Both the position numbers and the translations under genes were made by a program. A model generated the notes under the pieces. It was not told the origin of the DNA, searched no databases, and saw only the letters and a program-made list of their open reading frames with translations. From Betaproteobacteria bacterium (lineage in GTDB: Bacteria; Bdellovibrionota_B; Oligoflexia; Silvanigrellales; Silvanigrellaceae), in contig VGHE01000019.1 in the NCBI GenBank assembly GCA_016868315.1, positions 1 to 35,506 of the forward strand: 35,506 nt of DNA, read 5' to 3'. Position 1 is the stretch's first letter. Each line of letters starts with the position of its first letter. Shown in pieces: positions 1,912 to 30,190 of the stretch.

Positions 1912-2511
1912 TCAGAGAAGCAAAAAGAGACCAAATCGTGCCCGGATAAGCAACCCGGAAAAAGGTGCCGGGCTTGTGCCCAGGGCATAGGAGCCGTCGA
2001 TGTTGGCATCTAAGGCCACAGAGCGCGTGAATTGATACTGCGTGCCCGCGCCCCCTCCCACAGAAATGTAATTGGATGCAATTTCAGAGAGTGCTGTGAG
2101 GTCGGAAGTTGTAATAAAATAGCGGCCGTAGCCTACTTTGCCATGGATGTAAGGCTTCAGGTTGGCTGTATACTTTATTTGGCTCGTGGGGTGAAGGTCA
2201 TTGAAGTCGACCCCATAGGCGAATGGGTAGTACTGCACACCTGCACGTGTTTCCATAATTTGGGTCACCTGGAACTTATTCGAAAGCGCAACCTGGAATT
2301 CTCCCACCGCCGCGAGAACCCTCGATTGAAAGGAAACCCACTTGAAGTCGAAGTTCTTTACAAACATTTCGGAAGCGGGCTGATAGCCACTTGCGTTGCC
2401 GAGTATAACGCCGGTTGAAACAACGACAGCAGAATTCACCTCTGCAAACGCTGCGGGGTTTGCAAAGAGGCATCCAAATCCAACAAAGGTCGATGGCTTA
2501 AACAATCTCAT
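1912..2511 (-). CDS. outer-membrane beta-barrel protein
   Basis: A 199-residue protein with a signal peptide (cleavage likely after AFA, residue 23). It is followed by alternating polar/hydrophobic strands and many Gly and aromatic residues, ending in a short hydrophobic segment (FGLFLLL). That is the pattern of a small 8-stranded outer-membrane barrel of the OmpA/OmpW/OprF-like 'beta-barrel' type. The start ATG overlaps the TGA of the upstream PEGA lipoprotein gene by ATGA (2508-2511), so the two are probably translationally coupled. The C-terminus does not end in the classical aromatic residue, but barrels with a Leu end exist. The exact family and any ligand cannot be told from the sequence. 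Confidence 0.75.
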   Translation of the reverse strand: MRLFKPSTFVGFGCLFANPAAFAEVNSAVVVSTGVILGNASGYQPASEMFVKNFDFKWVSFQSRVLAAVGEFQVALSNKFQVTQIMETRAGVQYYPFAYGVDFNDLHPTSQIKYTANLKPYIHGKVGYGRYFITTSDLTALSEIASNYISVGGGAGTQYQFTRSVALDANIDGSYALGTSPAPFSGLLIRARFGLFLLL

Positions 2512-3158
2512 TTCTTTCGACCTTTGGGAGCAGCCGCGGGTGGTTCCGCACTGCCGCCCACATCGGAGAGCATTGAGCGCACTTCTGTGTCTTGAGGATC
2601 GAGCGCGAGAGCTTTGTAGAGTGCCTCTCGGGCTTTCTCTTTATCGTTCTGAAGTGAGTAGGTGTAGCCTTCGAAGTAGTAGATTGCTGCGATGTTTGGG
2701 TTTGCAGCTTTGGCCTTTTCAAGCGTCTTGAGTGCTTCTTTGAGATTACGGTCGATGATCTGGCGCTCGGCTTCGAGAACCAAACGGACAGCCAGATTCA
2801 CCGTACCGAAATCCTCCGAACCCAGCGGCTGCAGGAGTGCTTCTATTTCGAGTTGTCCACCCCCAAGATTCGGTACAACAAAGTTCTGGCTCACATAGCC
2901 TGAGCGTTTTACGGTGAGCACAATCGTGCTTGTGTTCGCAAGCTTTTTAATTTCTGCAAGGTCTTTGTTGTACGGGGTTGGTCCCAGAAGTTGTGGGTTT
3001 TCGCGGCCAGGCACAGAAAGATAAACCTCTGCACCGCTGGGCTTGCTCTTTATGCTCACCGATGCGCAACCACTGGTGAAAAGGGTTGCGAGGAGTGCGA
3101 GTTGGCAAAAAGGCCGAATTTTTTGCGTTACGTTATGGTTTCTGAAAACTTTGTTCAT
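2508..3158 (-). CDS. PEGA-domain and TPR lipoprotein
   Basis: A 216-residue exported protein. The signal sequence ends in the lipobox-like TSGC with Cys at residue 31. Residues about 32-112 form a PEGA domain: 'SIKSKPSGAEVYL' followed by the 'VKRSGYVSQNFVV' strand. Residues about 125-197 hold two TPR-like helix pairs ('AIYYFEGYTYSLQNDKEKAR', 'ALYKALALDPQD'). The tail is Ala/Pro/Lys rich. PEGA domains are common on envelope and spore-surface proteins. TPRs suggest a protein partner. A GGAG ribosome site lies before ATG 3158. It is the first gene of the leftward operon and is divergent from the motor operon across a 250-bp intergenic region. An accessory role for that motor is possible but not shown. 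Confidence 0.82.
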   Translation of the reverse strand: MNKVFRNHNVTQKIRPFCQLALLATLFTSGCASVSIKSKPSGAEVYLSVPGRENPQLLGPTPYNKDLAEIKKLANTSTIVLTVKRSGYVSQNFVVPNLGGGQLEIEALLQPLGSEDFGTVNLAVRLVLEAERQIIDRNLKEALKTLEKAKAANPNIAAIYYFEGYTYSLQNDKEKAREALYKALALDPQDTEVRSMLSDVGGSAEPPAAAPKGRKK

Positions 3159-3408: not shown

Positions 3409-5673
3409 ATGTTCAGCATTCCGCAGTTGTGTCGTTCAATCGCTTTGGCGCGAGTGCTTTGTGTACTTGCGGCATTGCTGTTGTCGCATTCTGCCGGACT
3501 CTCCAAAAACTTTGGCTCGGCATACGCGCAAACAAGTGGCCGTGCGAACCTGAACCAAACCCTCGATGCGAAGGTGGCCGAGGCCGAGGCCTTCCTCGAA
3601 GAAAGGCTCAACAAGCGCCTTGAGGCCATTGCCGAACCTCCGTTCCTGACCATTGTCAAAGTCGACTTCCCGGTGGCTAAATTGAATGCCCTCCGTCAGA
3701 GCGCAGGAGGAAACCTCTCGAAGCTCTCTCGCGGTGCAGTTTCCAAAGGAATCACCGGAGACGATGCACTTATTAGCCTTCTCAATGCCCTCACGCCCTT
3801 GGAGATTCTCTCCAACGCAGCGAAGGTGAATATTTCCGTGACGCTTGATGTTTCGTTTCCGAAAGATTCCATCGCTGAATTGAAAAATTCTCTCTCGGCA
3901 TTTCTCCGCCTCAACACAAAGCGCGGTGACACTCTGGATGTGAATCAAAAAGACCTGACCGCAGGTAAGTCAAAAACCAAAGTTGAACGCGCTGAGAAAG
4001 AAAATCAGCAAATAAAATCCCAGGTGGATTCTCTGCAACGTGAACTTGAATCGATCCGGCGTCGGGAGAGCGATGCCCAGCGTGAGGTTCAGGAAGCACG
4101 TCGGAAAGAGCAAGACGCCCAGGCGCAGCTGCGCGAATCACAGCGCGTTGCCGATGATGCAAAGAGCAAAGTGCGTGACGAACAAGACAAAACCAACAAG
4201 GCCGAAGAGGCCAGGCGCAAGCTTTCGGCGGAAGTCGATGAGCTCAAGAAGCAGATTACAGAGCTGAACCAAAAGAACAAAGACCTCACCGACGATGCCA
4301 ATACGCCCGCGGGTAAAGTCAGAAAACTGATTGCAGGTCTTGAATTGCCTCTCACAGTCATTCCGGCGGTGCTGCTGGGTTTATTGGGTGTTCTGGTCAT
4401 TGTTCTCCTGCAAACGTCTCGGGTGAAGACTGCCAGCACCGACATGACGGCAACCATGATGCAGGTTTCAGCCGCTGTTGCAAAAATCGGTGAATCTATC
4501 GTTCAAGCTGCCAAAGTGCAGGGTAAGCAACAGGGTGAAGCTATCAACATGGCAGGTCCTGGGGGAGCTGGGATGCAGCAGAATCAGCTGCAGTCTTCTG
4601 GCGATTCAACTTCTGAAGAGTTGATTGCACTTGAAAAGGAAGCTCAGAGTTTACTTGTTGACATGAATCAAACACGCTATGCCATGCTCAGCGTGCTGAA
4701 GGATTGGGTGGCTGACAAGCGCGAACGGACAAAGTTTGCCGGGTTCTCCGAGGCTGTTGGGCCGAATGCTGCGCGGGAGATCTGGAAGAGTTTTCCGAAA
4801 GAGGAACTCGAGCTTCTAGGCAACGCTCTTTACGAGCCCATGGCAAAAGCACAAGCCTACAAAGTTGTTCTGCAGCTCTATCGCTTGGCTGGCCGCGAAA
4901 TCAGCCGGAAGCCGAGCTACTTCTCGAACCTGGATATGATTTATTTGATCTCGGCAACCGACTCAGAGCTGAGCAACGCTCTCTCGGAAGCAGAGACAAT
5001 TTCCGCGGCTAGGCTGATGGTTTTGCTGACTCCTGAGCGCTGTGCTCGTGTCATTGGTGGATTGCGCAATCACGATAACGTTGAGCTGCTCGAGGCTATG
5101 CGCGAAGCGACCAACATGAGCGAAGACGACGCCAAAGGTGCAATTGCGGCAATCAAAGGTCTTATCAAGAGCGATCGTGGCGACTCACGATTCGATGTCA
5201 CGAGCCATTTGATGCTGATGCTCGATGCTCCTAATCCCGAATTCAGAACTGCGGTCAGCAAAGTTCTCCGTGCCGACAAATCGCTCTCGGCATCGGTAGG
5301 CTCAAGGGTTGTGACGATTGAAGAGGTTTTACGCCTTGACGACGAAACTCTAGCCGAGCTTCTTGCAGAGCTTGAGCCAGCAGATGTCGCCACGTTGCTT
5401 GTGTCGCTTCCGGAAGAGCTCAACGAGCGTATTAATCAATTCTTTACCTCTGCAAAGATCCAGGCGGCTATCCGGCAGGAGCTCGACAAATTCAATCGCT
5501 CTCGTACAGCGCGTAAGCGTGCTGAATTTGAGGGTCAAAAAATTCAGGCGGCACTTATCAAGCAAGTGAAGGATATGCGTGAGCAAGGACTCATTGAGCT
5601 TGCAGGCGAAGCCTCTGGTGAAGGTGCAGGTGACGACGAGGGTGGTTCCGAAGCTGAAGCGGAGGCCTCCTAA
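3409..5673 (+). CDS. FliF-RBM3 / coiled-coil / FliG-like fusion, putative motor rotor
   Basis: A 754-residue membrane protein. Residues 1-40 are a signal peptide or TM1 (AYA/Q). Residues about 45-180 resemble the FliF ring-building motif RBM3: a helix with 'LEERLNKRLEAI', a strand 'LTIVKVDF', then 'KVNISVTLDV' and a helix ending in 'FLRLNTKRGDTLDV', which matches the FliF signature '..V(G)F...RGD.(L/V).V'. Residues about 190-300 are an unbroken charged coiled coil. Residues 312-335 are a membrane helix. The cytoplasmic part (340-754) has a FliG-M-like segment (about 510-590) and a FliG-C-like segment (639-732: 'EEVLRLDDETLAELLAELE' to 'MREQGLIEL'). By hand alignment K683 falls at E. coli FliG R281 and E691 at D289. 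The FliM-binding EHPQ motif is absent. MotA/MotB-like genes follow directly. Inference: MS-ring and rotor functions in one chain, working without a FliM/FliN C-ring. The FliG similarity is firmer than the FliF similarity. Confidence 0.75.
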   Translation: MFSIPQLCRSIALARVLCVLAALLLSHSAGLSKNFGSAYAQTSGRANLNQTLDAKVAEAEAFLEERLNKRLEAIAEPPFLTIVKVDFPVAKLNALRQSAGGNLSKLSRGAVSKGITGDDALISLLNALTPLEILSNAAKVNISVTLDVSFPKDSIAELKNSLSAFLRLNTKRGDTLDVNQKDLTAGKSKTKVERAEKENQQIKSQVDSLQRELESIRRRESDAQREVQEARRKEQDAQAQLRESQRVADDAKSKVRDEQDKTNKAEEARRKLSAEVDELKKQITELNQKNKDLTDDANTPAGKVRKLIAGLELPLTVIPAVLLGLLGVLVIVLLQTSRVKTASTDMTATMMQVSAAVAKIGESIVQAAKVQGKQQGEAINMAGPGGAGMQQNQLQSSGDSTSEELIALEKEAQSLLVDMNQTRYAMLSVLKDWVADKRERTKFAGFSEAVGPNAAREIWKSFPKEELELLGNALYEPMAKAQAYKVVLQLYRLAGREISRKPSYFSNLDMIYLISATDSELSNALSEAETISAARLMVLLTPERCARVIGGLRNHDNVELLEAMREATNMSEDDAKGAIAAIKGLIKSDRGDSRFDVTSHLMLMLDAPNPEFRTAVSKVLRADKSLSASVGSRVVTIEEVLRLDDETLAELLAELEPADVATLLVSLPEELNERINQFFTSAKIQAAIRQELDKFNRSRTARKRAEFEGQKIQAALIKQVKDMREQGLIELAGEASGEGAGDDEGGSEAEAEAS

Positions 5674-5712
5674 CATGAGAAATGAATTTATCATGAACAC
5701 TGGAGTCACAAC

Positions 5713-6507
5713 ATGAGCTCGACCATTATTGGGTTCATTGTTGCTTGGTTGTTTGCGGGGTACATGATCCAGCACGCAATCAAAGATTTAAAAGTATTGA
5801 ACGACGTTCCGGGGTTTCTGCTGATTGTGGGCTCGACGGTTGCCATGGCTTACATGGCCAACACGGCCGAGGAAGCAAAACGTATCTGGAAGGCCATGTT
5901 TGAGGGTTTTAAGAAGAGGGTCGATAGGCGTCAGGATATCGTGAGTGAGATTGTTACGGTTGCTAAGGTCACCAATGGCGATCCTCGCCTCATTGAGCAG
6001 CAGATGGGCTCCATTCAGCAGCCCTTTTTTAAAGAAGGTTTGGGTTTGATTCTTGACCGTTTCAAGCCCGATCAAATCGATTCCATTATGACCGACCGCA
6101 TCGAAAGCCATAAACTCTTTCTCGCAAAGAAAACAATGGGTCTCAAGGCGTTGGCAAAATACCCACCAGCCTTCGGAATCATTGCGTGCGTGGTGTCGCT
6201 GATTGCGGTGATGCAACAGCTGGGTGGCGAGCTGAAAGCTGGTGCTCTTGGACCTGCCATGGCGATTGGACTTGTTGGAACATTGATTGGATTGCTTGCA
6301 GCAAACTTCATCATCATGCCCTTGGGTGAAAATTCCGAGGCGCGCGACAAAGCTGAGCTGAAGGAACGTGAGATCATTTTGCAGGGTGTTTTGCTTCTTG
6401 CGAACAAAGAAACTCCGCTCTTTGTTCAGGAAAAGTTGAATTCCTACTTGAAGGAAGAGCAGCGTGTAGACGTCCTGGGTGTGGGCGGAGGTGGAAAAGC
6501 TGCATAA
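5713..6507 (+). CDS. MotA-like stator (proton channel) protein
   Basis: 264 residues with four membrane helices at about 4-20, 32-50, 153-170 and 181-202 and a large cytoplasmic loop between the second and third, as in MotA of flagellar stators. TM3 begins with the family's Pro ('YPPAFGIIACVVSLI', P151/P152). TM4 carries the typical 'LGPAMAIGLVGTLIGLLAAN' followed by P203 at the cytoplasmic end. In flagella MotA pushes on FliG through loop residues of the 'R..G...lE' motif. Here the loop reads 'AKVTNGDPRLIEQQ', so the acidic residue is kept but the usual Arg is not in place. GGAG 7 bases before ATG 5713 supports the start, which lies 39 bases after the fusion gene. The alternative ExbB/TolQ has three helices and does not fit. 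Confidence 0.88.
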   Translation: MSSTIIGFIVAWLFAGYMIQHAIKDLKVLNDVPGFLLIVGSTVAMAYMANTAEEAKRIWKAMFEGFKKRVDRRQDIVSEIVTVAKVTNGDPRLIEQQMGSIQQPFFKEGLGLILDRFKPDQIDSIMTDRIESHKLFLAKKTMGLKALAKYPPAFGIIACVVSLIAVMQQLGGELKAGALGPAMAIGLVGTLIGLLAANFIIMPLGENSEARDKAELKEREIILQGVLLLANKETPLFVQEKLNSYLKEEQRVDVLGVGGGGKAA

Positions 6508-6517
6508 GGAGCTATGA

Positions 6518-7486
6518 GTGTCACGTCGGGGTCTGTTCGAAAATTCAGGAGATCATGCTTCGCCTCTTGAGGGTGCGGCAGGGCGTTCTCTTGAAAAGAA
6601 AAAGCACACCCCTGCGCATCACCCCAAGAAACACAAAGGTGGTGATGATCACGGTGGCGGGGGTGGTGGTCACGAGAGCGATGACACACTTTGGCTCTAC
6701 TCGTTCAATGACATGCTTTTTAACCTGCTTCTGTTCTTCATTGTGATGTATTCCATCTCTCAGGTCGACGAGAAAAAGTTTGCCGAAGTTCAGCAGGCAC
6801 TTCAGGGTTCAAAGAAGCCACAACTTCTCAAAGAAGAAGAAGACAAAGATGGCGTTGTGATTGGACCCCGTAACGGTGCACTTGATGCCAAGCAGCTTGC
6901 CTCCTCGGGTGGTGAAGCAGGTGGTGATAAGAGTGCCGAGATTGCAGCTGCAATTCGTTTTATGCTTGAACGCTCTCAGAAAGCAGACGTCAAATTGGCG
7001 AAGGGAGCCGGCAAAGAGGAGCAGAAGAAGGAAGAGGCGACCAAAAAAAGCAAATATCTTTCCGGAACAAACATTCCACTGCCGATGCAGCTTGCATTTA
7101 CCTCGAAGGAATTTTTTGCCCCAAAAAGCGCGGAGCTCACCCTTGAGGGTATGGAAAACCTCAAACAGCTTGCTGAAGAAGTGGCAAAGCAAGAGACTCT
7201 TGGAAAAGTTGAAATCGAGGTGCACACCGAGTTCACCCAAGACACAATCAATAGCCCAAAGGCAGAGAGCTCGTTCGCAGACCTCAAGCTCTCCACCGTG
7301 CGGGCAGGTGTGTTTTTTGAATATTTTTTGAAAGCGGGCATTCCCCATAAAAAGGTGGTGAGCGCGGGCTACGCCGATGGACGCCCCTTGCTGTCTCTTG
7401 CCACCATGTCGCCAAAGCAGCGGGTTGAGTTTGCTGAATCCAACGAACGCATCGTTGTGAGTCTCAGCAAGGAGAAAACGCCATGA
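6518..7486 (+). CDS. MotB-like stator protein with OmpA-like domain
   Basis: 322 residues. The start is GTG 6518 with AAGGAG 6 bases upstream; the nearby ATG at 6514 is out of frame. Residues 25-57 form a His/Lys/Gly-rich cytoplasmic tail. One membrane helix (59-80) reads 'YSFNDMLFNLLLFFIVMYSI'. D65 falls at the position of the proton-carrying Asp of MotB ('AyaDFmtalmaFFlvmW'). After a charged Lys/Glu linker, residues about 200-320 form an OmpA/MotB peptidoglycan-binding domain. 'FFAPKSAELTLEGMENL', 'LSTVRAGVFFEYFLKAGI' and 'SAGYADGRPLL' are recognisable. The usual GHTD and NRRVEI motifs are degenerate (VHTE, NERIVV), so binding may differ. It should pair with the MotA-like protein and anchor it to the wall. 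Its stop overlaps the next start by ATGA. Confidence 0.88.
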   Translation: MSRRGLFENSGDHASPLEGAAGRSLEKKKHTPAHHPKKHKGGDDHGGGGGGHESDDTLWLYSFNDMLFNLLLFFIVMYSISQVDEKKFAEVQQALQGSKKPQLLKEEEDKDGVVIGPRNGALDAKQLASSGGEAGGDKSAEIAAAIRFMLERSQKADVKLAKGAGKEEQKKEEATKKSKYLSGTNIPLPMQLAFTSKEFFAPKSAELTLEGMENLKQLAEEVAKQETLGKVEIEVHTEFTQDTINSPKAESSFADLKLSTVRAGVFFEYFLKAGIPHKKVVSAGYADGRPLLSLATMSPKQRVEFAESNERIVVSLSKEKTP

Positions 7487-8418
7487 AGTTTTCTCTCGGT
7501 TTTCTCTCTGGCTTTCAAAAGTTCACCGCAGCAGGAATACTTGCTGCGCTCGTTGCGCTCTATTTCGTCAACCGTCGTCAGGAAGACAAATGGGAACGCT
7601 TGAAGAAGGGGTTGGCCGAGTCTTATGGTGAAAGCCCAGTCAGCCCGACCGACTCTCCCGTGTATGCCATCGATCTCGAAGGTGAGGCAAAATACAAGCG
7701 CCCGTCTTGGCTTAATTGGTGGCCTCTGAAGCCAGGCATTGAGCTTCAGCCCGGCGATTTGGTTTACGTGTCCGACGAGTCGAAGGTTGTGCTTTACTTC
7801 ATAAGCCAAGATTCAATTGTGACGTTGCCAGAGGGTTCCCTTTTCCATGTTGGCCTTACTGTTCCGCAGATGTCCAAACTGCGCACATCGGGTGGTGTCT
7901 CCTCTGAAATTGGCGGGGAGCCCGAGAAGAAGGTGAAATCACCTCTGACAGAGGCACGATTTTCAACCCGGGTCATTCAAAACCCAGGGATAAAAAAGGC
8001 GGGAGCTCCTGAGAGCGATCCGGCCAATCGCCCGCCGGAAGTTATCACAGACGAAGACCTCAAAATTGTGCGCAACACGCGCACACTGAATATCCGTTAC
8101 CCCGGAGCAAACGTTGAGGTCTACGCAAGTCAGTTTCCAACCTCCATACCCGTGACTTTTGAGAATTCCGACAAAAGGATTCAGCTTTGGGGCTATCTGT
8201 GGAAAGGAAAAGAACTTGAACCACAGTGGTCATCGGTGGCCTCATCTGGTTTTCCTCGGGTGCCTATCGAAAAACCAGGCAACTATGTTTTTCAGGCCAT
8301 GTCGGAAGATGAGCTTTATGCTTCACCGCCAATCCTGATTCGTGCGGTCAAACGCGGAGAAGAGGATTACCTGCCCGAGCCTGAGAATTGGCTCGAGGGA
8401 GTGAGGGTGTACCAATGA
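7483..8418 (+). CDS. membrane-anchored FecR-like periplasmic protein
   Basis: 311 residues. One N-terminal membrane helix (about 11-28) is followed by a short charged region and a periplasmic part. Residues about 62-125 have the FecR-like pattern: an L..GD.V stretch ('LKPGIELQPGDLVYV'), then 'SKVVLYFISQDSIVTLPEGS'. The C-terminal half (about 185-300) looks like an Ig-like or FecR C-terminal beta domain, with 'NVEVYASQFPTSIPVTFEN' and a final 'PGNYVFQAMS'. ATGA overlaps couple it to the MotB-like gene before it and the phosphatase gene after it, so it belongs to the same operon. FecR-type proteins often act as periplasmic sensors or scaffolds. Here it may sit around the periplasmic part of the motor. 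No known motility protein is clearly matched. Confidence 0.7.
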   Translation: MKFSLGFLSGFQKFTAAGILAALVALYFVNRRQEDKWERLKKGLAESYGESPVSPTDSPVYAIDLEGEAKYKRPSWLNWWPLKPGIELQPGDLVYVSDESKVVLYFISQDSIVTLPEGSLFHVGLTVPQMSKLRTSGGVSSEIGGEPEKKVKSPLTEARFSTRVIQNPGIKKAGAPESDPANRPPEVITDEDLKIVRNTRTLNIRYPGANVEVYASQFPTSIPVTFENSDKRIQLWGYLWKGKELEPQWSSVASSGFPRVPIEKPGNYVFQAMSEDELYASPPILIRAVKRGEEDYLPEPENWLEGVRVYQ

Positions 8419-10688
8419 ATGCCCAACTCCAGAATGCAAAATCGCGCTTTTCGAATACCTTCCTCTATAAGTTATTCGATTTCTTTTCGTTGTGGGATAG
8501 AAGTAGCCTTAAAAGCCGTTTGACGTTCACCCAGACGTTCATTTTGATTGTGAGTATTGCCGCCATTTTGGTTGCGGGGATTAGCCTTTATCGAAACGAC
8601 AAGCTCTCTTATGTTTACGAAAATCATTATCTCAAAACGAGCGCAGTAGCGACACGCCTCAAACTCTATTTTTCGAATCTCCCTCGCCAAGATATTCTAC
8701 TTGTTAAGGGCACAGAAGAGGCAAAATTTGCGAGCACCTACGGACTCCCACAGCTGCCCGCCGAAGATCAGGTCTTTGTTGGAAGACGAGGCGAGAAGGT
8801 GTTTGTTTTTGGACGCGAGGGTGGCGAGAAAGTCTGGCGCACTGAACTCGACCCCAATGTACAGCTTTTTGAGGGAATCGACGGCAAAAGCTACATCGCG
8901 AACTCATTTGGTCAGTTCATTTCCTCTTATGACAAACGCGATGTGAATGCCTCGAACTTCACATCGCGTCCCGGAACTAAAAAGTTCATTAAGAGCGGTT
9001 TACGCGAAGGCTTCACTCGCTACACCGACGGTGAAAACGAATGGATTATTTCCTTTCGGGAAATCCCAGGGACAAATGTGATTACCTTTGTGGAAACCTC
9101 ACTTGCTTCCTTGAACGCACCCATCCGCAAGTTTGCCTCTGTGGCTGCCGTCATGGCGCTCGTTTTGGTGGGGTTGGTTGTCCTTTTAACTGACTTCCTT
9201 TTGCTTGGCCTGTTGCGTCCATTGCGCGAAATCGTGAATGCCATGTTCAAAATTTCCGCGGGTCACTATGACATTCAGTTCAATGTGAAGTTCGATGAAG
9301 AACTCAATTTCGTTGCTCGTGGATTGCAACAGATGGCAAAGCGCCTGGAAATTCGTGAGGCGGAGTTGCGCCAAATCAGCGCCAACCTGGAATTCGTGAT
9401 GAAGGTCACCAAAGAGATGTCTCTTATGCCTAATCGCGACGAATGTTTGCAGATGATGATCAAACAAGTGCGCAACTACGTTCGCTTCAAGCCCATTATG
9501 GACGCCTCAGCTGTCATCTTTGAACTTGGAACAAATGCACCCAAGGGAGTGATTGACTATGTGCAAATGGGTTCAGTGGTGCCAGAGCTCAATATTCTGA
9601 GCCTTGAGGCTGCTGGTGTGGACTTGGAGGAGCTCACCTCGCCAGAGTCTGTGAGCATGCTCGGCACGACCGTTATTTTGCGCGCTTATGCGGGTGAAGA
9701 GCTCAAGATGATTCTGATGCTCGATGGCTTTCCTGAAGACAACATGAGCACCATTGAGCGGCATCTCATGACACTCCTTGCTGCATCGTTAGGGCATGCA
9801 TTGGTGATGTTTGATTTCCAGGAAGAACGTCTGGCAACCGCACACTTCGAAAACGAACTGGTCACCGCCCAAGCAGTTCAATCTGCACTTTTGCCATCCT
9901 CGCGTCCGGTGATGAACGCAGATCTCGACTTCCACTACGAAGCCGCATCGAAGTGCGGTGGCGACTGGCTCTTCTTCGATAAGTCCGAAGAGAGCCCGTG
10001 GCTGCATGCATTGGTGGGCGATGTGACCGGTCACGGGGTTCCCGCCGCAATCATGACAGGTGTGGCGTATGGAAGCTTTATGGGCGCTCAGGCCGTGATG
10101 GAAACGCTGCGCGCCACGGAAACGATGGGCGAAACCGATCGCCTCGAGTTCATGGCTGCGATTTTGAATCGTGCCATTTTGAGCGTGGGTAAGTCAGCTC
10201 GCCTCATGACCATGTGTCTTGTTTCTCTTAATACCGACACCGGTGAGTTGTACTATGCCAGTGCAGGGCACACCCCTCTGCTTTGGTACCGCACCAAAAC
10301 GAAGAAGATCTCACCCCAGACATCTACCGGAAACCCACTTGGAGTTTCGCTCGATCGAACGATAACGGTGAAGAAATTGCAGCTCGAGCAGGGCGACCTT
10401 TTCGCGCTGTTCACCGACGGTCTCCTCGAGAACCATGGACCCAAGAAGGATATGTTGCCCAAGCGCCGATTCTACGACCTGCTCTCGAGTGGGCGACCTG
10501 TGCGTGACATTTGTAAGAGCATTATGGATGAAGCTAAGGCTATTTGGCAGGATGAAGAATACGCAGACGACGTCACAATGCTTATCGTGCGTTGGCCCGC
10601 AAGCGAGCAAGTGGTGGTCAATACCGATCCTCTTCCCGATGCCCCTGCAGACCTTGCCGGGGAAGGTTCCGCAGCACCCGCGGCCTGA
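8415..10688 (+). CDS. membrane HAMP-GAF-PP2C (RsbU/SpoIIE-type) serine phosphatase
   Basis: 757 residues. ATG 8415 is chosen because it forms an ATGA overlap with the previous stop; an upstream start at 8388 would overlap by 31 bases. Order: TM1 (38-58), extracytoplasmic sensor region (about 60-235), TM2 (about 241-268), HAMP (269-325), a GAF-like region (about 345-475) and a PPM phosphatase domain (about 490-735). All metal-site signatures are present: 'GGDW' (D517), 'GDVTGHG' (D536), 'FTDG' (D668) and 'ADDVTM' (D718/D719), plus 'AQAVQSALLP'. It should dephosphorylate a Ser/Thr-phosphorylated anti-sigma-antagonist (STAS) or similar partner in response to a periplasmic signal. Its position as the last gene of the motor operon suggests it reads or controls the motor. 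The HATPase protein at 32717-33691 is a possible pathway partner. Confidence 0.9.
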   Translation: MNAQLQNAKSRFSNTFLYKLFDFFSLWDRSSLKSRLTFTQTFILIVSIAAILVAGISLYRNDKLSYVYENHYLKTSAVATRLKLYFSNLPRQDILLVKGTEEAKFASTYGLPQLPAEDQVFVGRRGEKVFVFGREGGEKVWRTELDPNVQLFEGIDGKSYIANSFGQFISSYDKRDVNASNFTSRPGTKKFIKSGLREGFTRYTDGENEWIISFREIPGTNVITFVETSLASLNAPIRKFASVAAVMALVLVGLVVLLTDFLLLGLLRPLREIVNAMFKISAGHYDIQFNVKFDEELNFVARGLQQMAKRLEIREAELRQISANLEFVMKVTKEMSLMPNRDECLQMMIKQVRNYVRFKPIMDASAVIFELGTNAPKGVIDYVQMGSVVPELNILSLEAAGVDLEELTSPESVSMLGTTVILRAYAGEELKMILMLDGFPEDNMSTIERHLMTLLAASLGHALVMFDFQEERLATAHFENELVTAQAVQSALLPSSRPVMNADLDFHYEAASKCGGDWLFFDKSEESPWLHALVGDVTGHGVPAAIMTGVAYGSFMGAQAVMETLRATETMGETDRLEFMAAILNRAILSVGKSARLMTMCLVSLNTDTGELYYASAGHTPLLWYRTKTKKISPQTSTGNPLGVSLDRTITVKKLQLEQGDLFALFTDGLLENHGPKKDMLPKRRFYDLLSSGRPVRDICKSIMDEAKAIWQDEEYADDVTMLIVRWPASEQVVVNTDPLPDAPADLAGEGSAAPAA

Positions 10689-10761
10689 CGAGTAAAATCT
10701 GCATCAGTCCCGTCTTCAGCTCTCAAGGTAAACTTTTTACATCAGGGAAGTTTTGCTTTTG

Positions 10762-11913
10762 ATGGGGCGCATTCACATGGCTGTGTTTGATCGTTTTTCA
10801 AGAAGAAATGTTGGCATTTTTCTGTGGCTTGTTCCTGCACTTTGGGTCGCAGCAACATCCTGCAAGCCACGCATTTTTAATCAGATGAGCGACAAAGAAT
10901 CAGAACTGTTAGGCGTCAGGTCGGTTTCATTTGAACGAGAGGAACTTTTGGGCAAATACCGATTTGAGAGAATCACCCCAACGGGTGAACGCATTATGGC
11001 TGCAGCTATGAATTGGGCTAAAATGCAGGAGAGCGAAGCAGAAAGGTATGCCAAACCCGCTCAAAGTGCGAATAATCTTTCACGTGTTCTCGAGATGGCA
11101 GGACTGAAAGACTACAGCTCACCACTCCTTCTGGATGTTATCTCTGCTGTGCGCAAGCGTGGTGGATTGGTCGTTGAACTTCCCAAAGAGACCCGTGCTA
11201 TTGCGCGCTTTGTGGAAGAGCATTTCGATGGAGTTCTTCCCGCAGGTGCCATAGTCAGCGGCTGCCTGAAGCGTGATTGTTCTGGCGAGCCGGGTGATGG
11301 GAATATTGGTATCGTTGGCGAAGTCGATGAAAAAGACAGGCTTCATCTGTGGCACAACAATTGGTTCAGACCTGAAAATCGCCCTTGGCGCGAACATATG
11401 ATTCCACTGAGCTGGTACCAGTCGGGCTTTCCAAGAAAGTGGATGTCTACCCCTTGGCTCACACGCGTGCGTAATCCGCTGGGCGCGCTCTCGGACATCA
11501 CAGTTGTGATTCCAGAGCTCGATGAAATCGATCCAGCCGACTACTTCATGACCCTCACTCTTCTTCCCGAGATCATGGCCGAACTGAAGCAGGGCAAGTC
11601 TGTCATGAGCGATGGTCTGGGTTCGGTTATGCCCTTCAGATCACGGGCTGTGACGCGTCCAATAAACCCTTTGCCTCTGCCACCTCCGCCGCCACTCGCA
11701 GAGTGCAGGAGATTGCGCACAGCCTCTCAGGTTCCAACCAATTTGCGCGCAGAACCGAACGGTAAAATTATCTGTAAGTTTCCCCTGGGGACTCTCTTGG
11801 AGCGGGTCACCAATCAGGGAACCTGGATTGAGGTCAAAGGGGTGTGCCCGAATGGATTTCAGGCCTCGGGGGTTCTGCTCGCGGCCTTCGTGGCACCTGC
11901 ATGTGAACAATAA
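10762..11913 (+). CDS. exported NlpC/CHAP-like protein with C-terminal SH3-type domain
   Basis: 383 residues from ATG 10762. TTG 10753 and ATG 10777 are alternatives, and the start is not certain. A hydrophobic N-terminus ends at 'AATSCKP', which may be a weak lipobox. The central part (about 170-260) has 'AGAIVSGCLKRDCSG', 'GNIGIVGEVDEKDRLHLWHN' and 'PWREHMIPLSWYQ', which is the style of NlpC/CHAP cysteine-peptidase folds, but a catalytic Cys-His pair is not certain. A Pro-rich linker ('LPLPPPPPLAEC') leads to about 70 residues resembling a bacterial SH3 domain ('VPTNLRAEPNGKIICKFPLG', 'QGTWIEVKG'). This points to cell-wall association. A 73-base gap separates it from the motor operon and 121 bases separate it from the next gene, so it may be its own unit. 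Confidence 0.65.
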   Translation: MGRIHMAVFDRFSRRNVGIFLWLVPALWVAATSCKPRIFNQMSDKESELLGVRSVSFEREELLGKYRFERITPTGERIMAAAMNWAKMQESEAERYAKPAQSANNLSRVLEMAGLKDYSSPLLLDVISAVRKRGGLVVELPKETRAIARFVEEHFDGVLPAGAIVSGCLKRDCSGEPGDGNIGIVGEVDEKDRLHLWHNNWFRPENRPWREHMIPLSWYQSGFPRKWMSTPWLTRVRNPLGALSDITVVIPELDEIDPADYFMTLTLLPEIMAELKQGKSVMSDGLGSVMPFRSRAVTRPINPLPLPPPPPLAECRRLRTASQVPTNLRAEPNGKIICKFPLGTLLERVTNQGTWIEVKGVCPNGFQASGVLLAAFVAPACEQ

Positions 11914-12034
11914 TGCAGCGTGTCACTTCGACGACTGGAGGTGTTCAACGAAGATGAAGAACAACCGAAGGATTAACAGAGCTGATTTGGGATTAACGGC
12001 ATGAGCCTTTTTTTGTGAGTGAGAGGTAAGCGAC

Positions 12035-14485
12035 ATGTTTCAAGGACAAGGTCCACGTCTGGTTCCCCATCTGAGAGTCATGCAGGACACCAAAGAGTTT
12101 CCCTTTAAATGCGTTTTGAGCATGGGACCACTGGTACGCTACTGGGCTGGACTGGTGGCATCACAGGAGCCGACGGTGTCGAAGATTGCATCCGACGTGA
12201 TGCGTCGTCTCGAGCGCGCACCTGAGCTTGCTCAGCCAATCACTGATTCAAAAGTGATTCAAACACACGAGTCGCTCATCAAAGTCATGATGAGCATCCT
12301 GTGGTCATCGGGCTTCAAAAATCCCGAGAGCAGTGGTGCCGTGCTGCCTTTCCATGTGCAGCCCATCATGGTTTCCGACACCTTCTTCGATTCCTTTTTC
12401 GACAAAAACGGTCGCTTTGCCGCCAACTGCCAGGTGGGTGAAGATGCATGGTTAAACCAGCGCATCAAGCTTGCGTACTCAACCATTCTGCGGCGCTTGT
12501 ATGGTATCGAGCTCGAGATGGGCACACGTCCGGTGGTCTTCTCGACCCAAGACAAAATGACCAACCTCGTGCGTTCGCACAGCGTGACCATGGAGCCTAG
12601 CTTCTGTGACGTAGTCAACGTGGGTGGTCCTAAGGTTCTCGACGAGAAAATTAAGCGTGAGTTGCTTGCCGATGTAAACGATATGGAAAAGTGGAGAGAG
12701 CTTCTCCCAGCAAACTGGTTCGAATTCCATGGCTTTGCCTTCTTCCGCACCAACGACATTACGGATCAGAACGCCTTCTATGACATTCAGAAAACTCTAA
12801 CCGAGCGTGACTCAGCTGATCCTGCAGTCATGCTGACCAAAGTTGAGGCAGCCCTGCGTCAGGTTCTGCGTAGACCGCATCTTGGCGTGGGAATGAGCAC
12901 CAGCGTGGGTGGATTCCTCTCACGTGCACGCATCAATGGTGGCCCCGAGCGCAAGGGCAACGAGAGTGTTACTGTTGAGCGTTATGGCCGCGATGATCTC
13001 CAGGGATCATTGTTCTCACTTCAAAACGATGCTCTCGAACGCGCCCGCACACAGCAGCGTGGCTTCGTGACACTCGACTTGGCAGCAAGTGCCGACCGTT
13101 CCAAGGTGGAGTCGGATCTTCTGAACCAGGGCGTTCGTTCGATGGCCGTGTTTCCATTGTTCTTCGATGACCAGCACATTGGCTTCTTCGATATTACCTC
13201 ACCGAAGAAAGACGACCTCAACGAGGCCACAGTTGAAAAGATTGCAGACCTGTTGCCTCTGATGTGCCTTGCCGGCAAGCGTCGCATCGACGACGTGAAG
13301 CAAGCGGTACAATCCATTATCTCTGAGCAGTGCACGGCAATCCACCCGACCGTGGAGTGGCGTTTCCATGAAGAGGCACAGATGGCCTCGGAACGTGCTG
13401 AAGGAAATAAGAGTCTCGAGATGAAGAACATCTTCTTCCAGGATGTTTACCCACTCTATGCTCTGAGCACCATCCGCAACTCTGCAACTCTGCGTTCCAA
13501 AGCTGTGCAGGACGATCTCCGCACGCAGATTGGGTTGGCGCTTGAAGTGCTGCAGATGGCTTACGAGAATCGCCCGATGCCCTTCCTGCGTGAGTTGTGC
13601 TTCCGTCTCGAGAAGCTCGATGCGCGCATTTCTGAACAGCTCACAGCAGGTGATGAGCTCGCTGCGAGCAAGTTCCTTGCATCGGAAGTCGAGCCAGTGT
13701 TCAACCACGTTCGTGGTTGGAACCTGAACCTCATTCAGAAGATTAATGCCTACTGGAAACAGCTCGACGACAAGTCGCGTACCGTATATCTGCGCCGTCG
13801 TGAGTTCGATGCCAGTGTGGTTGAGGTAACTTCAACTCTTTCGAACTACCTTAAGACTCAGCAAAACAACGCTCAGAAAATTTTCCCGCACTATTTCGAG
13901 AAACACTGCAACGAGACCGTTGAGCACACGATTTTCATTGGCCAATCGCTCGTCAAAGGGCGCGAGTTCAACGAAATCTATCTCAAAAACCTCCGCTTGT
14001 GGCAGCTTATGGTGATGTGCGGCTCGGCAGCTGAGGCTGCTCGCATGAAGCCAAATCTGAAAGTTCCGTTCGATTTGACCCACGTGATTGTGGTTCAGGA
14101 CACGCCTGTGAACGTGACTTTTGACTTCGACGACAAGCTTTTCCACGTGGAAGGCGGTGCGGATGGTCGCGGTGAAATGCTCAAACGCCGTGTGGATCGT
14201 GCAGTGATTAAAGGCACACAAGAACGCTTGGCTCAGCCAGGTAAGCTTTCGGTGGTGTTCACGCAGGAGCGCGAGCGCCTCGAGTATATGGAGTATTTCA
14301 CATTCCTTGCGGCTCAAGAGTGCCTGCTTGAGGATGTGGAAGAGTATCTCATTGATGAGGTTCAGGGAGCGCAAGGTCTGCGGGCTCTGCGGGTGAGCAT
14401 CAACTTGAAGGCTCTCCTCGAGCGTGGTACCGACCTCTATGAGATCATCCATCATACAGGTAAGCAATCTCTCAGGGCGGCATGA
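12035..14485 (+). CDS. large GAF-domain protein of unknown function
   Basis: 816 residues, no signal peptide or clear membrane helix, so cytoplasmic. AGAGG lies 8 bases before ATG 12035. Residues about 265-415 look like a GAF fold ('HLGVGMSTSVGGFLSRARIN' through 'MAVFPLFFDDQHIGFFDIT'). The following region contains 'FFQDVYPLYALSTIRNSATLRSKAVQDDLRTQ'-like sequence (about 470-505), a helical stretch seen in long GAF proteins of Bacteroidetes and deltaproteobacteria-like bacteria whose role is not known to me. No kinase, cyclase, GGDEF or DNA-binding motif is visible after it, so any ligand sensed must be passed on by protein contact. The stop overlaps the start of the glycosidase lipoprotein gene by ATGA, which suggests linked production. 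The product's chemistry cannot be stated. Confidence 0.75.
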   Translation: MFQGQGPRLVPHLRVMQDTKEFPFKCVLSMGPLVRYWAGLVASQEPTVSKIASDVMRRLERAPELAQPITDSKVIQTHESLIKVMMSILWSSGFKNPESSGAVLPFHVQPIMVSDTFFDSFFDKNGRFAANCQVGEDAWLNQRIKLAYSTILRRLYGIELEMGTRPVVFSTQDKMTNLVRSHSVTMEPSFCDVVNVGGPKVLDEKIKRELLADVNDMEKWRELLPANWFEFHGFAFFRTNDITDQNAFYDIQKTLTERDSADPAVMLTKVEAALRQVLRRPHLGVGMSTSVGGFLSRARINGGPERKGNESVTVERYGRDDLQGSLFSLQNDALERARTQQRGFVTLDLAASADRSKVESDLLNQGVRSMAVFPLFFDDQHIGFFDITSPKKDDLNEATVEKIADLLPLMCLAGKRRIDDVKQAVQSIISEQCTAIHPTVEWRFHEEAQMASERAEGNKSLEMKNIFFQDVYPLYALSTIRNSATLRSKAVQDDLRTQIGLALEVLQMAYENRPMPFLRELCFRLEKLDARISEQLTAGDELAASKFLASEVEPVFNHVRGWNLNLIQKINAYWKQLDDKSRTVYLRRREFDASVVEVTSTLSNYLKTQQNNAQKIFPHYFEKHCNETVEHTIFIGQSLVKGREFNEIYLKNLRLWQLMVMCGSAAEAARMKPNLKVPFDLTHVIVVQDTPVNVTFDFDDKLFHVEGGADGRGEMLKRRVDRAVIKGTQERLAQPGKLSVVFTQERERLEYMEYFTFLAAQECLLEDVEEYLIDEVQGAQGLRALRVSINLKALLERGTDLYEIIHHTGKQSLRAA

Positions 14486-27053: not shown

Positions 27054-29150
27054 ATGAACATCGGTTTGGGACAATATGGCCTCTTTGCCGTAGCAAATGC
27101 CACGGCTCATGAGCTGACCTATGAGATTCCTGAATCTCTCCGTCCGCAAATGGCGGCAGGGGTGTTGTGTGAATTGCCTGTTCAGGGGCGTCGCGCTGTC
27201 GGGGTATTTCTCAGTTTTTGTCCCAAACCTGAATTCAATTGTCGACCCGTGACAGCTCTCCTCCCAGACTGTCCGAGCTTGAAGCCGCGTGTGCTCGACC
27301 TTCTTCAGTGGCTATCGCACTACTACCTCGCGCCGCTGGGGCGCAGCATTCATTTGGCTGCACCTGGGTTTGTGTGGAATGCCTTGGCTCATGCCAAAAG
27401 ATTGAAGCGCCAGGAGCGAGTGCTCGCAAAACAGGCGCGAGCCGCATCAGTGCCAAAAGCCCAAGGTGCGCTTCAAGCGCAGCCTCTGAAAACTCTCAAT
27501 GCAGAGCAAATCAATGTTTATGAAGCGCTTCGTGGCGTCGAGCCAGGACACACGGCTCTGTTGCAGGGAGTAACGGGAAGCGGCAAGACCGAGGTTTATT
27601 TGCACCTTGTGCGTGACGCTCTTCATGCCGGAGGACGCGCGCTTGTTCTTCTTCCCGAAATCGCACTCACGCCCCAAATGTGTGAACGCTTTCGGGTTCA
27701 CTTCCCCGAAGAACTCGCCGTGCTTCACTCTGGGCTGAGCAATGTTGAGCACGAGCGTGAATGGTACAGAGTTGCTCGTGGAGAGGCTCGTGTGGTTCTG
27801 GGGGTGCGTTCTGCTGTGTTCGCTCCAATGGACGAGCTGCGCTTGATTGTTGTCGATGAAGAGCACGAGCAGAGTTATAAGTGCGATGAGTTCCCTTGCT
27901 ATCATGCTCGTGATGTTGCGGTAAAACGTGCGCAGCTCGAGAACGCGAGATGTGTTTTGGGAAGCGCAACTCCTTCGCTCGAGTCGTATCTCAACTCAGA
28001 AAGAGGCAAGTACAAAAAAGTGCTGCTCCGGGTGAAGCACTCACGCCAAACCAACCGTGTTGAACTTTTTCAGTATCGTCCGAAAATTCACTCAAGCGGT
28101 GGTCTTGCGCGCGGTGTTGTGCGCTCGTCTCAGTTTTCCTTTCAGGGTCATGTCATGGCTCCTGGAGTGGTTGAACTGCTTCGCGAAACACAAGCGCGCG
28201 GCGAACAGAGTATGGTTATTCTCAATCGTCGTGGTTTTGCTCAGTTTGCTTTGTGCGGTGACTGCGGAGTGGCACTGCAGTGTCCTCATTGCTCTGTGAG
28301 CACAACTTTGCATTCACGCGGCAGCAAAGAGCTTTGCCATTACTGCGGTTTCTCGCGACCTATCTTGAAACATTGTCCTTCATGCGGTTCCGAAAAACTT
28401 GTGCAGATGGGGCTGGGAACCCAAAACATGGAACAGGAAATCACCGAGCGTGTTCCTGGAGTTGTTGTTGATAGGCTCGATCGCGACGTTCTCACAAGTG
28501 CAACGCGCTTGTCGGAAATCATCAAGCGTTTTCGTACGGGAGAGACGCAGTGCCTTGTTGGAACCCAGATGCTCTCCAAAGGTCATGATTTTCCGCGCGT
28601 AACCTTGGTGGTTATACTGAATGTTGAGGATGGCCTTTTTGTGCCAGATTTTCGAGCCTCAGAGCGTACTTTTCAGCTTTTGTGCCAGGCCTCTGGTCGC
28701 ACGGGGCGCGGTGAACTCCCCGGGCTCATTGCTGTCCAATCCTTGGGCGCAAGTCATCCCGTGGTTTCGCTTGCTTTGGAAGGAAACATCGATCGCTTCC
28801 TCACAGATGAGCTCAAGATGCGCCAGCTCGGATGGCATCCGCCTGTGTGCCGGCAAGTTCTCGTAGAAATGCAGCATGCGAGTGAAGCGCACCTCATGCA
28901 ACTTGGCTCTGTGCTGCAGAGAGAACTCACAGCCGCTTGGACCGCTCAAGGGCTAACGCCACAAAACGTGCGTTTGACTGGTCCCTTGCCAGCTGTTTTG
29001 TCCAAATTGCGGGGGCAATACCGCGTGCATCTGGTGATTGCGGCTCAGCGCGAGATTCACCCTTCACGATTGTTTCCTCAGGAGTTGATGTTTCGTAAGG
29101 AATTTCAGCATCTTTTGAAGGTAGATGTCGATCCCTTCTCCTTCCTTTGA
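27054..29150 (+). CDS. priA: primosomal replication restart helicase PriA
   Basis: 698 residues from ATG 27054, with AAAGGA 5 bases upstream. The longer frame to 26958 gives residues unlike PriA. PriA reloads the replisome at stalled forks by binding D-loops, unwinding lagging-strand duplex and recruiting PriB/DnaT/DnaB. Seen: N-terminal 'LTYEIPESLRP' of the 3' binding domain, Walker A 'VTGSGKTEVYL' (173-183), Walker B DEEH (268-271, followed by EQSYK), 'RRGFAQFALCGDCG', a zinc region beginning C401/C404 with further CxxC pairs ('CPHC', 'CHYC', 'CPSC'), 'GTQNMEQEI', 'LVGTQMLSKGHDFP' and 'SGRTGRGE', a variant of the usual GRAGR. All key features are present, so it should be active. The gap to the FliG-like gene is 80 bases. 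Confidence 0.96.
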   Translation: MNIGLGQYGLFAVANATAHELTYEIPESLRPQMAAGVLCELPVQGRRAVGVFLSFCPKPEFNCRPVTALLPDCPSLKPRVLDLLQWLSHYYLAPLGRSIHLAAPGFVWNALAHAKRLKRQERVLAKQARAASVPKAQGALQAQPLKTLNAEQINVYEALRGVEPGHTALLQGVTGSGKTEVYLHLVRDALHAGGRALVLLPEIALTPQMCERFRVHFPEELAVLHSGLSNVEHEREWYRVARGEARVVLGVRSAVFAPMDELRLIVVDEEHEQSYKCDEFPCYHARDVAVKRAQLENARCVLGSATPSLESYLNSERGKYKKVLLRVKHSRQTNRVELFQYRPKIHSSGGLARGVVRSSQFSFQGHVMAPGVVELLRETQARGEQSMVILNRRGFAQFALCGDCGVALQCPHCSVSTTLHSRGSKELCHYCGFSRPILKHCPSCGSEKLVQMGLGTQNMEQEITERVPGVVVDRLDRDVLTSATRLSEIIKRFRTGETQCLVGTQMLSKGHDFPRVTLVVILNVEDGLFVPDFRASERTFQLLCQASGRTGRGELPGLIAVQSLGASHPVVSLALEGNIDRFLTDELKMRQLGWHPPVCRQVLVEMQHASEAHLMQLGSVLQRELTAAWTAQGLTPQNVRLTGPLPAVLSKLRGQYRVHLVIAAQREIHPSRLFPQELMFRKEFQHLLKVDVDPFSFL

Positions 29151-29230
29151 GTTCATCTTTTTGTTCAATCGTCCGATCACTCCTGAGACAGGCAGCGGTT
29201 CTCGTAGGTTCCTGCTGCCCAGGGGGATGT

Positions 29231-30190
29231 ATGCCTGCCTCAGCGTCCGAGAAAGCTGCACTCATACTAAATTTGCTTGGGCACGAGCTCGCTTCAAGGC
29301 TTTTTGCCGGTCTGCCGCGGCGTGAACAGACTGCTGTGTTGCGCTCAATGGCTGGCTCTCAGATCGCATTGTCGGATGCCGAAGTGCAGGAGATTTGCAA
29401 AGAGTTTCTCAACGCTCTAGCAGACAAAACACGCTCTGGCGTGGGTGGGATTCAGTCTCCGCGGGATAGTTTTGCGGGAGTGGAGTTGCCCAGAGCATCG
29501 CGGGTCAATGAGATCTGCGAAGATATTCCTGATTGGATTCTTATTGAACACCTCAAAAATCAGCTCGACTCAGTCATTAGCGCAGTTCTGGGCTCAATCG
29601 AGAGCTCTCGTGCGGGCACACTGTTCAAAGCAATGCCCTCTGAGCGACAAACGGCGTTGCTGCTGAGTCTCAGCAAAGAGCGTGTTTTGGAAGCGACAGT
29701 CTTAGATGAACTCGAGGCAGACCTTGAGGAGCTGCGCACCCGGACAGCCTCTGGTCGATTCGGACAAAGAGTCGGGGGGGCACAGCGCGCTCTGGCTCTT
29801 GTGCAGGCGCTCGACCCAGAAATGCGTCAACGCATTCTCGAAGAGGTGGATGCACGCGAACCGGCTTTGGCAAGGCACCTCGAGGGTGGGTTGCTCTCGG
29901 TTGCCAGGCTTTCTGGGCTTTTGCCTGCACATCTGGCTCTGCTTTTGGCTCAACTCAAAGACAACGACATTGGTTCATTTCTGAGGGGGGAATCCGAGCA
30001 AATCCAGGTGGCCTACCTATCTGCTTTGTCCAAGCGTCGGCGGGAAGATATCGAGTGCCTGTTGACGCCTGAGAAAAAGATAACCCAAAAACAAAAATCG
30101 GAGGCGTGTGAACGCCTCCGCTCATGTGCTCAGCAAATGAAGGGAGAGGGGAGAATCATCTTCCCATGGGAAGAGAGCCTGGTGAGCTGA
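29231..30190 (+). CDS. FliG-like protein (full length, divergent, no EHPQ)
   Basis: 319 residues from ATG 29231 with AGGGGG upstream. The frame extends to TTG 29147, but FliG proteins begin near this point. All three FliG parts are recognisable. Residues 5-62 are the N domain ('SEKAALILNLLGHELASRLF', 'DAEVQEICKEFLNAL'). Residues about 93-170 are the middle domain, where FliG's FliM-binding EHPQ motif is replaced ('LKNQLDSVISAVL'). Residues 182-319 are the ARM/C domain starting with the hinge GG (182-183) and ending 'GEGRIIF' like FliG's 'GE(I/M)VI'. By hand alignment to E. coli, R252 sits at K264 and R269 at R281, while C276/L277 replace D288/D289. No other flagellar gene is nearby. It may be a second rotor-side component working with the fusion/MotAB operon. 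The 3' end also encodes a terminator on the other strand. Confidence 0.75.
   Translation: MPASASEKAALILNLLGHELASRLFAGLPRREQTAVLRSMAGSQIALSDAEVQEICKEFLNALADKTRSGVGGIQSPRDSFAGVELPRASRVNEICEDIPDWILIEHLKNQLDSVISAVLGSIESSRAGTLFKAMPSERQTALLLSLSKERVLEATVLDELEADLEELRTRTASGRFGQRVGGAQRALALVQALDPEMRQRILEEVDAREPALARHLEGGLLSVARLSGLLPAHLALLLAQLKDNDIGSFLRGESEQIQVAYLSALSKRRREDIECLLTPEKKITQKQKSEACERLRSCAQQMKGEGRIIFPWEESLVS
30087..30120 (-). terminator. intrinsic terminator, minus strand, inside the FliG-like gene
   Basis: Read on the minus strand, CGGAGGCG and CGCCTCCG form a perfect 8-bp GC-rich stem with a 6-base loop (30099-30120). It is followed by ATTTTTGTTTTT (30098-30087). This is a strong rho-independent terminator about 150 bases beyond the stop of the small secreted protein gene, lying in the last 35 codons of the converging FliG-like gene. 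Confidence 0.85.

Follow-up and report, generated by a model that had tools for sequence, protein, structure and literature searches.

A candidate flagellum-independent stator-rotor motor with a FliF-FliG-type fusion rotor in Bdellovibrionota

Five genes in the stretch of DNA that we analysed (35,506 nucleotides, hereafter the window) probably encode a stand-alone, flagellum-independent and ion-driven stator-rotor motor, one that would serve envelope force or surface movement and be coupled to SiaA-like signalling. The unit resembles the core of the flagellar motor, yet we consider it likely that it is no part of a flagellum. Its central component, gene 1, is a natural mini FliF-FliG fusion that adjoins its own MotA and MotB, and two relatives of the host keep this core with no sign of a flagellum, which is why we believe that the cassette probably drives something other than swimming.

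The operon and its rotor protein

The initial annotation described a five-gene operon spanning 3409-10688, its members separated by 39 and 10 bases or joined by two ATGA overlaps, and the tightly packed open reading frames, all on the forward strand, match these figures exactly (Table 1). Gene 1 most likely starts at the ATG at 3409, which is preceded by GGGAGG and from which translation yields a signal peptide with a SAYA end. Purifying selection acts on each of the five genes, as comparison with the sister species G002 shows (pN/pS 0.10-0.28, with synonymous sites saturated); given these values, and a neighbourhood conserved over a phylum, the operon is not a product of chance. The unit contains no rod, hook, export or FliM/FliN genes and is co-conserved, and to that extent the original description of a non-flagellar unit combining a stator with its rotor partner holds. 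Downstream (window 10753-14485, forward strand) lie two uncharacterised genes of 378 aa and 816 aa, the latter with a weak GAF match, which occupy the same position in G002.

Table 1. Coordinates of the cassette, its neighbours and the domains of gene 1 in the window
Feature	Position	Strand	Basis
Predicted small outer-membrane protein, 199 aa, upstream of cassette	1912..2511	-	partly co-conserved
PEGA-TPR lipoprotein, upstream of cassette	2508..3158	-	Pfam; neighbourhood co-conservation
Gene 1, FliF-FliG-like rotor fusion, 754 aa	3409..5673	+	Pfam, topology, hhalign, PDB profile search, AlphaFold model
Gene 1 residues 45-183, FliF RBM3-like domain without beta-collar	3541..3957	+	structural alignment, hhalign
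Gene 1 residues 191-293, periplasmic coiled coil	3979..4287	+	sequence/model
Gene 1, single membrane helix	4351..4407	+	hydropathy
Gene 1 residues 438-732, FliG-like N/M/C armadillo region	4720..5604	+	hhalign, PDB profile, structural alignment
Gene 2, MotA-type stator A subunit, 264 aa, 4 hydrophobic segments	5713..6507	+	Pfam MotA_ExbB, structure profiles
Gene 3, MotB-type stator B subunit, 322 aa	6518..7486	+	Pfam MotB_plug, OmpA; Asp65
Gene 4, membrane-anchored periplasmic protein, two beta domains, 311 aa	7483..8418	+	model, homologues
Gene 5, periplasmic sensor region - HAMP - SpoIIE/PP2C phosphatase, SiaA-like	8415..10688	+	Pfam, NCBIfam

Gene 1 runs from a signal peptide through an RBM3-like periplasmic domain, a coiled coil and one membrane helix to a FliG-like cytoplasmic domain; the signal peptide, the single mid-protein helix and the cytoplasmic C-terminal half are common to nearly all of its relatives examined. 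Pfam matches are to FliG_C (PF01706, above cut-off) and MgtE_N. The cytoplasmic half aligns with FliG across the N, M and C regions (hhalign E 2e-30), and a PDB profile search again returns FliG across this entire region (E 6e-31), so that gene 1 contains the N/M/C fold of FliG together with its torque domain at the C-terminus. For the periplasmic half, hhalign against FliF gives E 1e-6 and a probability of 91-92%, over an alignment from the pre-RBM3 helix through the 'RGDxvxV' motif that closes RBM3, while five unrelated control alignments all fall below 1% probability. The PDB profile search finds FliF (6scn) at E 0.001, and a whole-genome scan matches FliF_C at three orthologous loci, under the curated cut-off. 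The RGD motif fades among the Bdellovibrionales members of the family.

We built an AlphaFold model of gene 1 on 24 homologues (mean pLDDT 76, pTM 0.35), in which the individual domains are confident and their mutual arrangement is not. Modelled residues 45-183 superpose on FliF RBM3 (8z5v) at 1.8 A over 97 residues (Z 11.9), and the modelled C-terminal half fits FliG with Z up to 11.7. The longer FliG alignments have a high rmsd, which we attribute to hinge movement between the domains of FliG, because the lone FliG_C domain fits at 2.3 A. Thus the ring-building RBM3 domain of the MS-ring protein FliF is present, with strong support from fold and modest support from sequence; RBM1, RBM2, the beta-collar and the two-membrane-helix layout of FliF are absent, and with a periplasmic globular domain of only ~139 residues it is RBM3 alone that fits. 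As modelled, the protein has the domain order and topology expected of a FliF with FliG placed behind it. The fusion rotor of the initial annotation is therefore borne out, and can be sharpened to FliF RBM3 plus FliG.

FliG binds FliM through an EHPQ motif. None of the 24 rotor proteins carries this motif and six canonical FliG proteins do; its absence is consistent with a lost C-ring. Of the torque contacts, which in E. coli are R281 and D288-D289 (PMC12505986), the R281 position is basic in 16 of the 24 rotor proteins and the D289 position acidic in 20. There is one natural precedent for such a fusion, in the non-flagellated Chlamydiaceae, where a shortened FliF is joined to FliG (Bergeron 2016, PMC4768692). 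The chlamydial protein is described with an RBM2-like domain and the FliG middle domain only, may be linked to the injectisome and has no stator reported beside it (PMC4768692), whereas the rotor described here has RBM3, is FliG-like over the full N, M and C regions and is accompanied by its own MotAB.

The stator and the accessory proteins

Genes 2 and 3 have the characteristics of a MotAB stator, at scores below the NCBIfam equivalog cut-offs. The MotA is of flagellar-type length, with four hydrophobic segments and a cytoplasmic loop, and aligns from end to end with MotA/PomA structures (E 3e-64), whereas TolQ matches it only in part (E 4e-7), the profile behind both values also containing the host's canonical MotA. 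In MotB, Asp65 lies within the membrane helix and is invariant in 10 aligned sequences, and the protein carries an OmpA-type peptidoglycan-binding domain. A tree of 77 MotA-type proteins separates the Bdellovibrionota cassette MotAs from the sampled flagellar MotAs (modest support, 89/92) and places them far from the host's own TolQ/ExbB proteins; the branches of three members (L018, L041 and L039) are too long for placement. These subunits are of MotA/MotB type, not TolQ/TolR type, which agrees with the earlier statement that the unit differs from AglRQS. The Agl-Glt gliding machinery of Myxococcus combines an ion-driven, TolQR-like stator with TPR, outer-membrane and periplasmic partners (PMC3169522); the cassette shares the ion-driven stator and the three kinds of partner, whereas surface movement is a property of Agl-Glt, which has neither FliF nor FliG.

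Gene 4 had been called FecR-like, a label we drop: Pfam searches of the protein and five homologues, and an NCBIfam search of gene 4, gave no FecR match. Its model, of low confidence (pLDDT 64), contains a membrane helix and two beta domains, one of them Ig/FN3-like, and a fold search returned generic Ig/FN3-like matches only. Of the HAMP-GAF-PP2C arrangement ascribed to gene 5, Pfam recovers HAMP and a SpoIIE-type PP2C, and gives no match for GAF. Gene 5 thus has the HAMP domain and, with its metal-binding Asp residues retained, the PP2C of a SiaA-type phosphatase, and SiaA is the closest named family (NCBIfam, below the SiaA equivalog cut-off). Since the active-site Asp residues are kept and SiaA is the nearest family, a phosphatase that reports the state of the motor is plausible. 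Gene 5 shares the HAMP domain, the SpoIIE-type phosphatase and the conserved metal Asp with SiaA/RsbU-type PP2C proteins, and differs from them in sitting in a motor operon. In the PEGA-TPR lipoprotein the lipobox Cys is invariant in 9 sequences.

Distribution and the host flagellum

A gene-neighbourhood search found the cassette to be co-conserved across Bdellovibrionota, with representatives in relatives of Bdellovibrio, Bacteriovorax and Oligoflexus. At 37 loci, which were picked with a MotA alignment (so that MotA is present by construction) and many of which are cut by contig ends, we find the rotor at 31, MotB at 33, the PEGA-TPR lipoprotein at 30, a gene 4 type protein at 25, the PP2C at 22 and the small outer-membrane protein at 14, against a background of 6 matches among 133 more distant genes. 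The same genes recur in differing order, as one would expect of a functional unit and not of an arrangement that was merely inherited. In the taxonomic family f9, an extra gene of 229 aa (L034:9767-10456) lies between the rotor and gene 4, with no match to a cassette family.

The host itself, a relative of predatory bacteria whose genome is 3.24 Mb and whose nearest named relatives are the Silvanigrellales, encodes a full flagellum. A complete flagellar gene set is present elsewhere in the genome: contig C5 carries FlgG/A/H/I/J, FliMNOPR, FlhBAFG and a sigma factor (named from translations), and the host also encodes canonical FliF, canonical FliG, FliMN, flagellins and, by profile, FlhA, with a canonical MotAB pair on C1. 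The initial annotation had taken standard FliF and FliG in the same genome to count against a separate motor. Both are indeed there, and the motor reading is not thereby refuted, because the cassette is kept in genomes from which both are absent; in the host, there may be cross-use between cassette and flagellum. As for 'stand-alone, non-flagellar', the host does not bear the phrase out, and its force comes from two other genomes. Indeed, since a flagellum is also found in 32 of the 34 genomes behind the named cassette loci, the case for independence rests on those two, G015 and G019, and not on the host.

G015 (96% complete, 1% contamination) has the lipoprotein, rotor, MotA, MotB and a gene 4 type protein, while its gene 5 looks shortened, reduced to the sensor part. 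In G019 (93% complete, 1% contamination) a very divergent cassette comprises rotor, MotA, MotB and a lipoprotein-type gene, with no recognised gene 4 or PP2C gene. Genome searches of both gave no match for FliF, FlhA, FliMN or flagellin and no canonical FliG, the sole FliG-like gene found being the rotor itself. Both are draft genomes, and it is unlikely that gaps hide all of the flagellar genes, given that the host has these families on several contigs. Because proteins from G015 and G019 went into the rotor profiles, strong profile scores there are not independent; single-sequence rotor matches are weak (8.5e-4 and 4.3e-5), and the FliG_C/MgtE_N matches in these rotors are independent of the rotor profiles. 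Conversely, all eight genomes of the flagellated genus g5 lack a rotor match. With flagellum-less carriers on one side and flagellated genomes without the cassette on the other, cassette and flagellum are decoupled in both directions.

Other FliG-like genes were observed in the host. One, a lone FliG paralogue with FliG_N, M and C domains (window 29147-30190, forward strand), lies directly after priA and far from the flagellar genes; the sister species G002 has a FliG-like gene ~25.8 kb from its cassette, at about the same distance as here. Another belongs to a second MotA-MotB-rotor cassette (G000 C7:72-76 kb; L041:6155-10149), whose 837-aa rotor has a membrane helix and FliG_M/FliG_C, similar proteins of 740-900 aa being widespread in the class. 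This is not the same FliF-FliG fusion, its periplasmic part matching FliF at a probability of only 1.4%.

Alternative readings and a proposed mechanism

An ordinary flagellar paralogue is ruled out as the sole explanation by the flagellum-less carriers. The cassette might instead be a flagellar accessory module, adding a further stator and either an adaptor or a second rotor layer to the ordinary motor in certain circumstances. The flagella of the host and of most named carriers speak for this, as does the treatment of the MotAB pairs of B. bacteriovorus as stators of a single flagellum (Morehouse 2011, as cited by PMC11323537 and PMC12827227). We nevertheless judge it unlikely, given that the cassette persists in two genomes without detectable FliF, FlhA, FliMN, flagellin or canonical FliG, that it is missing from many flagellated relatives, and that gene 1 has its own membrane ring domain and has lost the FliM-binding motif. 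Slightly less probable still, in our estimation, is a sensor of force or surface rather than a device for propulsion, in which the stator would load a rotor-like ring and the periplasmic proteins and PP2C would read the strain and convert it into a second-messenger or sigma-factor output. The PP2C of the operon has a HAMP domain and a periplasmic region and is co-conserved, its nearest named family is a biofilm phosphatase, and in Bdellovibrio loss of a stator gene alters c-di-GMP and lifestyle (PMC11323537). However, with the PP2C recognised at 22 of the 37 loci and seemingly cut down to its sensor part in G015, rotor and stator persist, and force generation therefore looks like the core of the system.

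It is very improbable that the cassette is an energy-transducing complex of the Tol/Exb kind, with gene 1 a mere adaptor bearing an MgtE/FliG-type repeat and neither ring nor rotation. Gene 1 does match the related repeats MgtE_N and FliG_C, and OmpA-type domains also occur in envelope-tethering proteins; against this, the MotA match is full-length where that to TolQ is partial, and the FliG match covers all three regions and adjoins a FliF RBM3 fold. Our conclusion from these comparisons is that the conserved unit is real and probably flagellum-independent. What it shares with the flagellar motor core is subunits of MotA/MotB type, a FliG-like torque domain, a FliF-type RBM3 and the order of membrane ring then FliG. 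It differs in placing FliF and FliG in one protein with a long coiled coil, in a rotor without RBM1/RBM2, beta-collar or FliM-binding motif, and, as a unit, in having no rod, hook, filament or export genes and being kept in flagellum-less genomes.

As a stator-rotor motor, the cassette might work as follows. By homology, MotA and MotB would form an ion channel anchored to peptidoglycan, with a MotA ring that turns; the ion drive, and with it the type of ion, we infer. Gene 1 would assemble an inner-membrane ring through its FliF-type RBM3, as its fold suggests, and offer its FliG-type domains to MotA, from which torque would pass to gene 1, a step to which fold and conserved charges both point. 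Judging by position, topology and co-conservation, the motion may then be relayed to the outer envelope by the coiled coil in the periplasm together with gene 4, the PEGA-TPR lipoprotein and the small outer-membrane protein. The output would most likely be surface movement such as gliding, or force on the envelope, and gene 5 would couple the state of the envelope or motor to cytoplasmic signalling.

B. bacteriovorus HD100 has three MotAB pairs. In its accessible text, a 2024 study of stators in BALOs (PMC11323537) assigns the motAB pairs to the flagellum, takes each to stand alone and does not mention a rotor gene next to them, and we found no description of the cassette in the open-access literature, preprints and most subscription papers lying outside the scope of that search. 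A 2025 survey of MotAB (PMC12505986) found that flagellar-type stators form a single group associated with flagella and that other stators have no torque interface, and its accessible text describes no FliG-partnered stator outside flagella. If our reading is correct, that rule would be broken by flagellum-less bacteria whose MotA-type stator has a FliF-FliG-type rotor of its own, and the cassette is relevant to the evolutionary assembly of ring, rotor and stator.

Of the possible roles of the cassette, gliding is the most interesting. Flagellum-independent gliding is described as essential for prey invasion by Bdellovibrio, with its machinery still unidentified (PMC13104615, 2026); the cassette is possibly the gliding motor of Bdellovibrionota. 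With the cassette found in relatives of Bdellovibrio, Bacteriovorax and Oligoflexus, the question can be tested directly in a laboratory predator. We would go further only tentatively, at rather less than even chances: a conserved family of rotary motors that work without a flagellum, every member pairing a one-protein FliF-FliG rotor with its own MotAB, may drive surface movement as the missing gliding motor of the Bdellovibrionota and be a stripped-down or ancestral-type relative of the flagellar motor.
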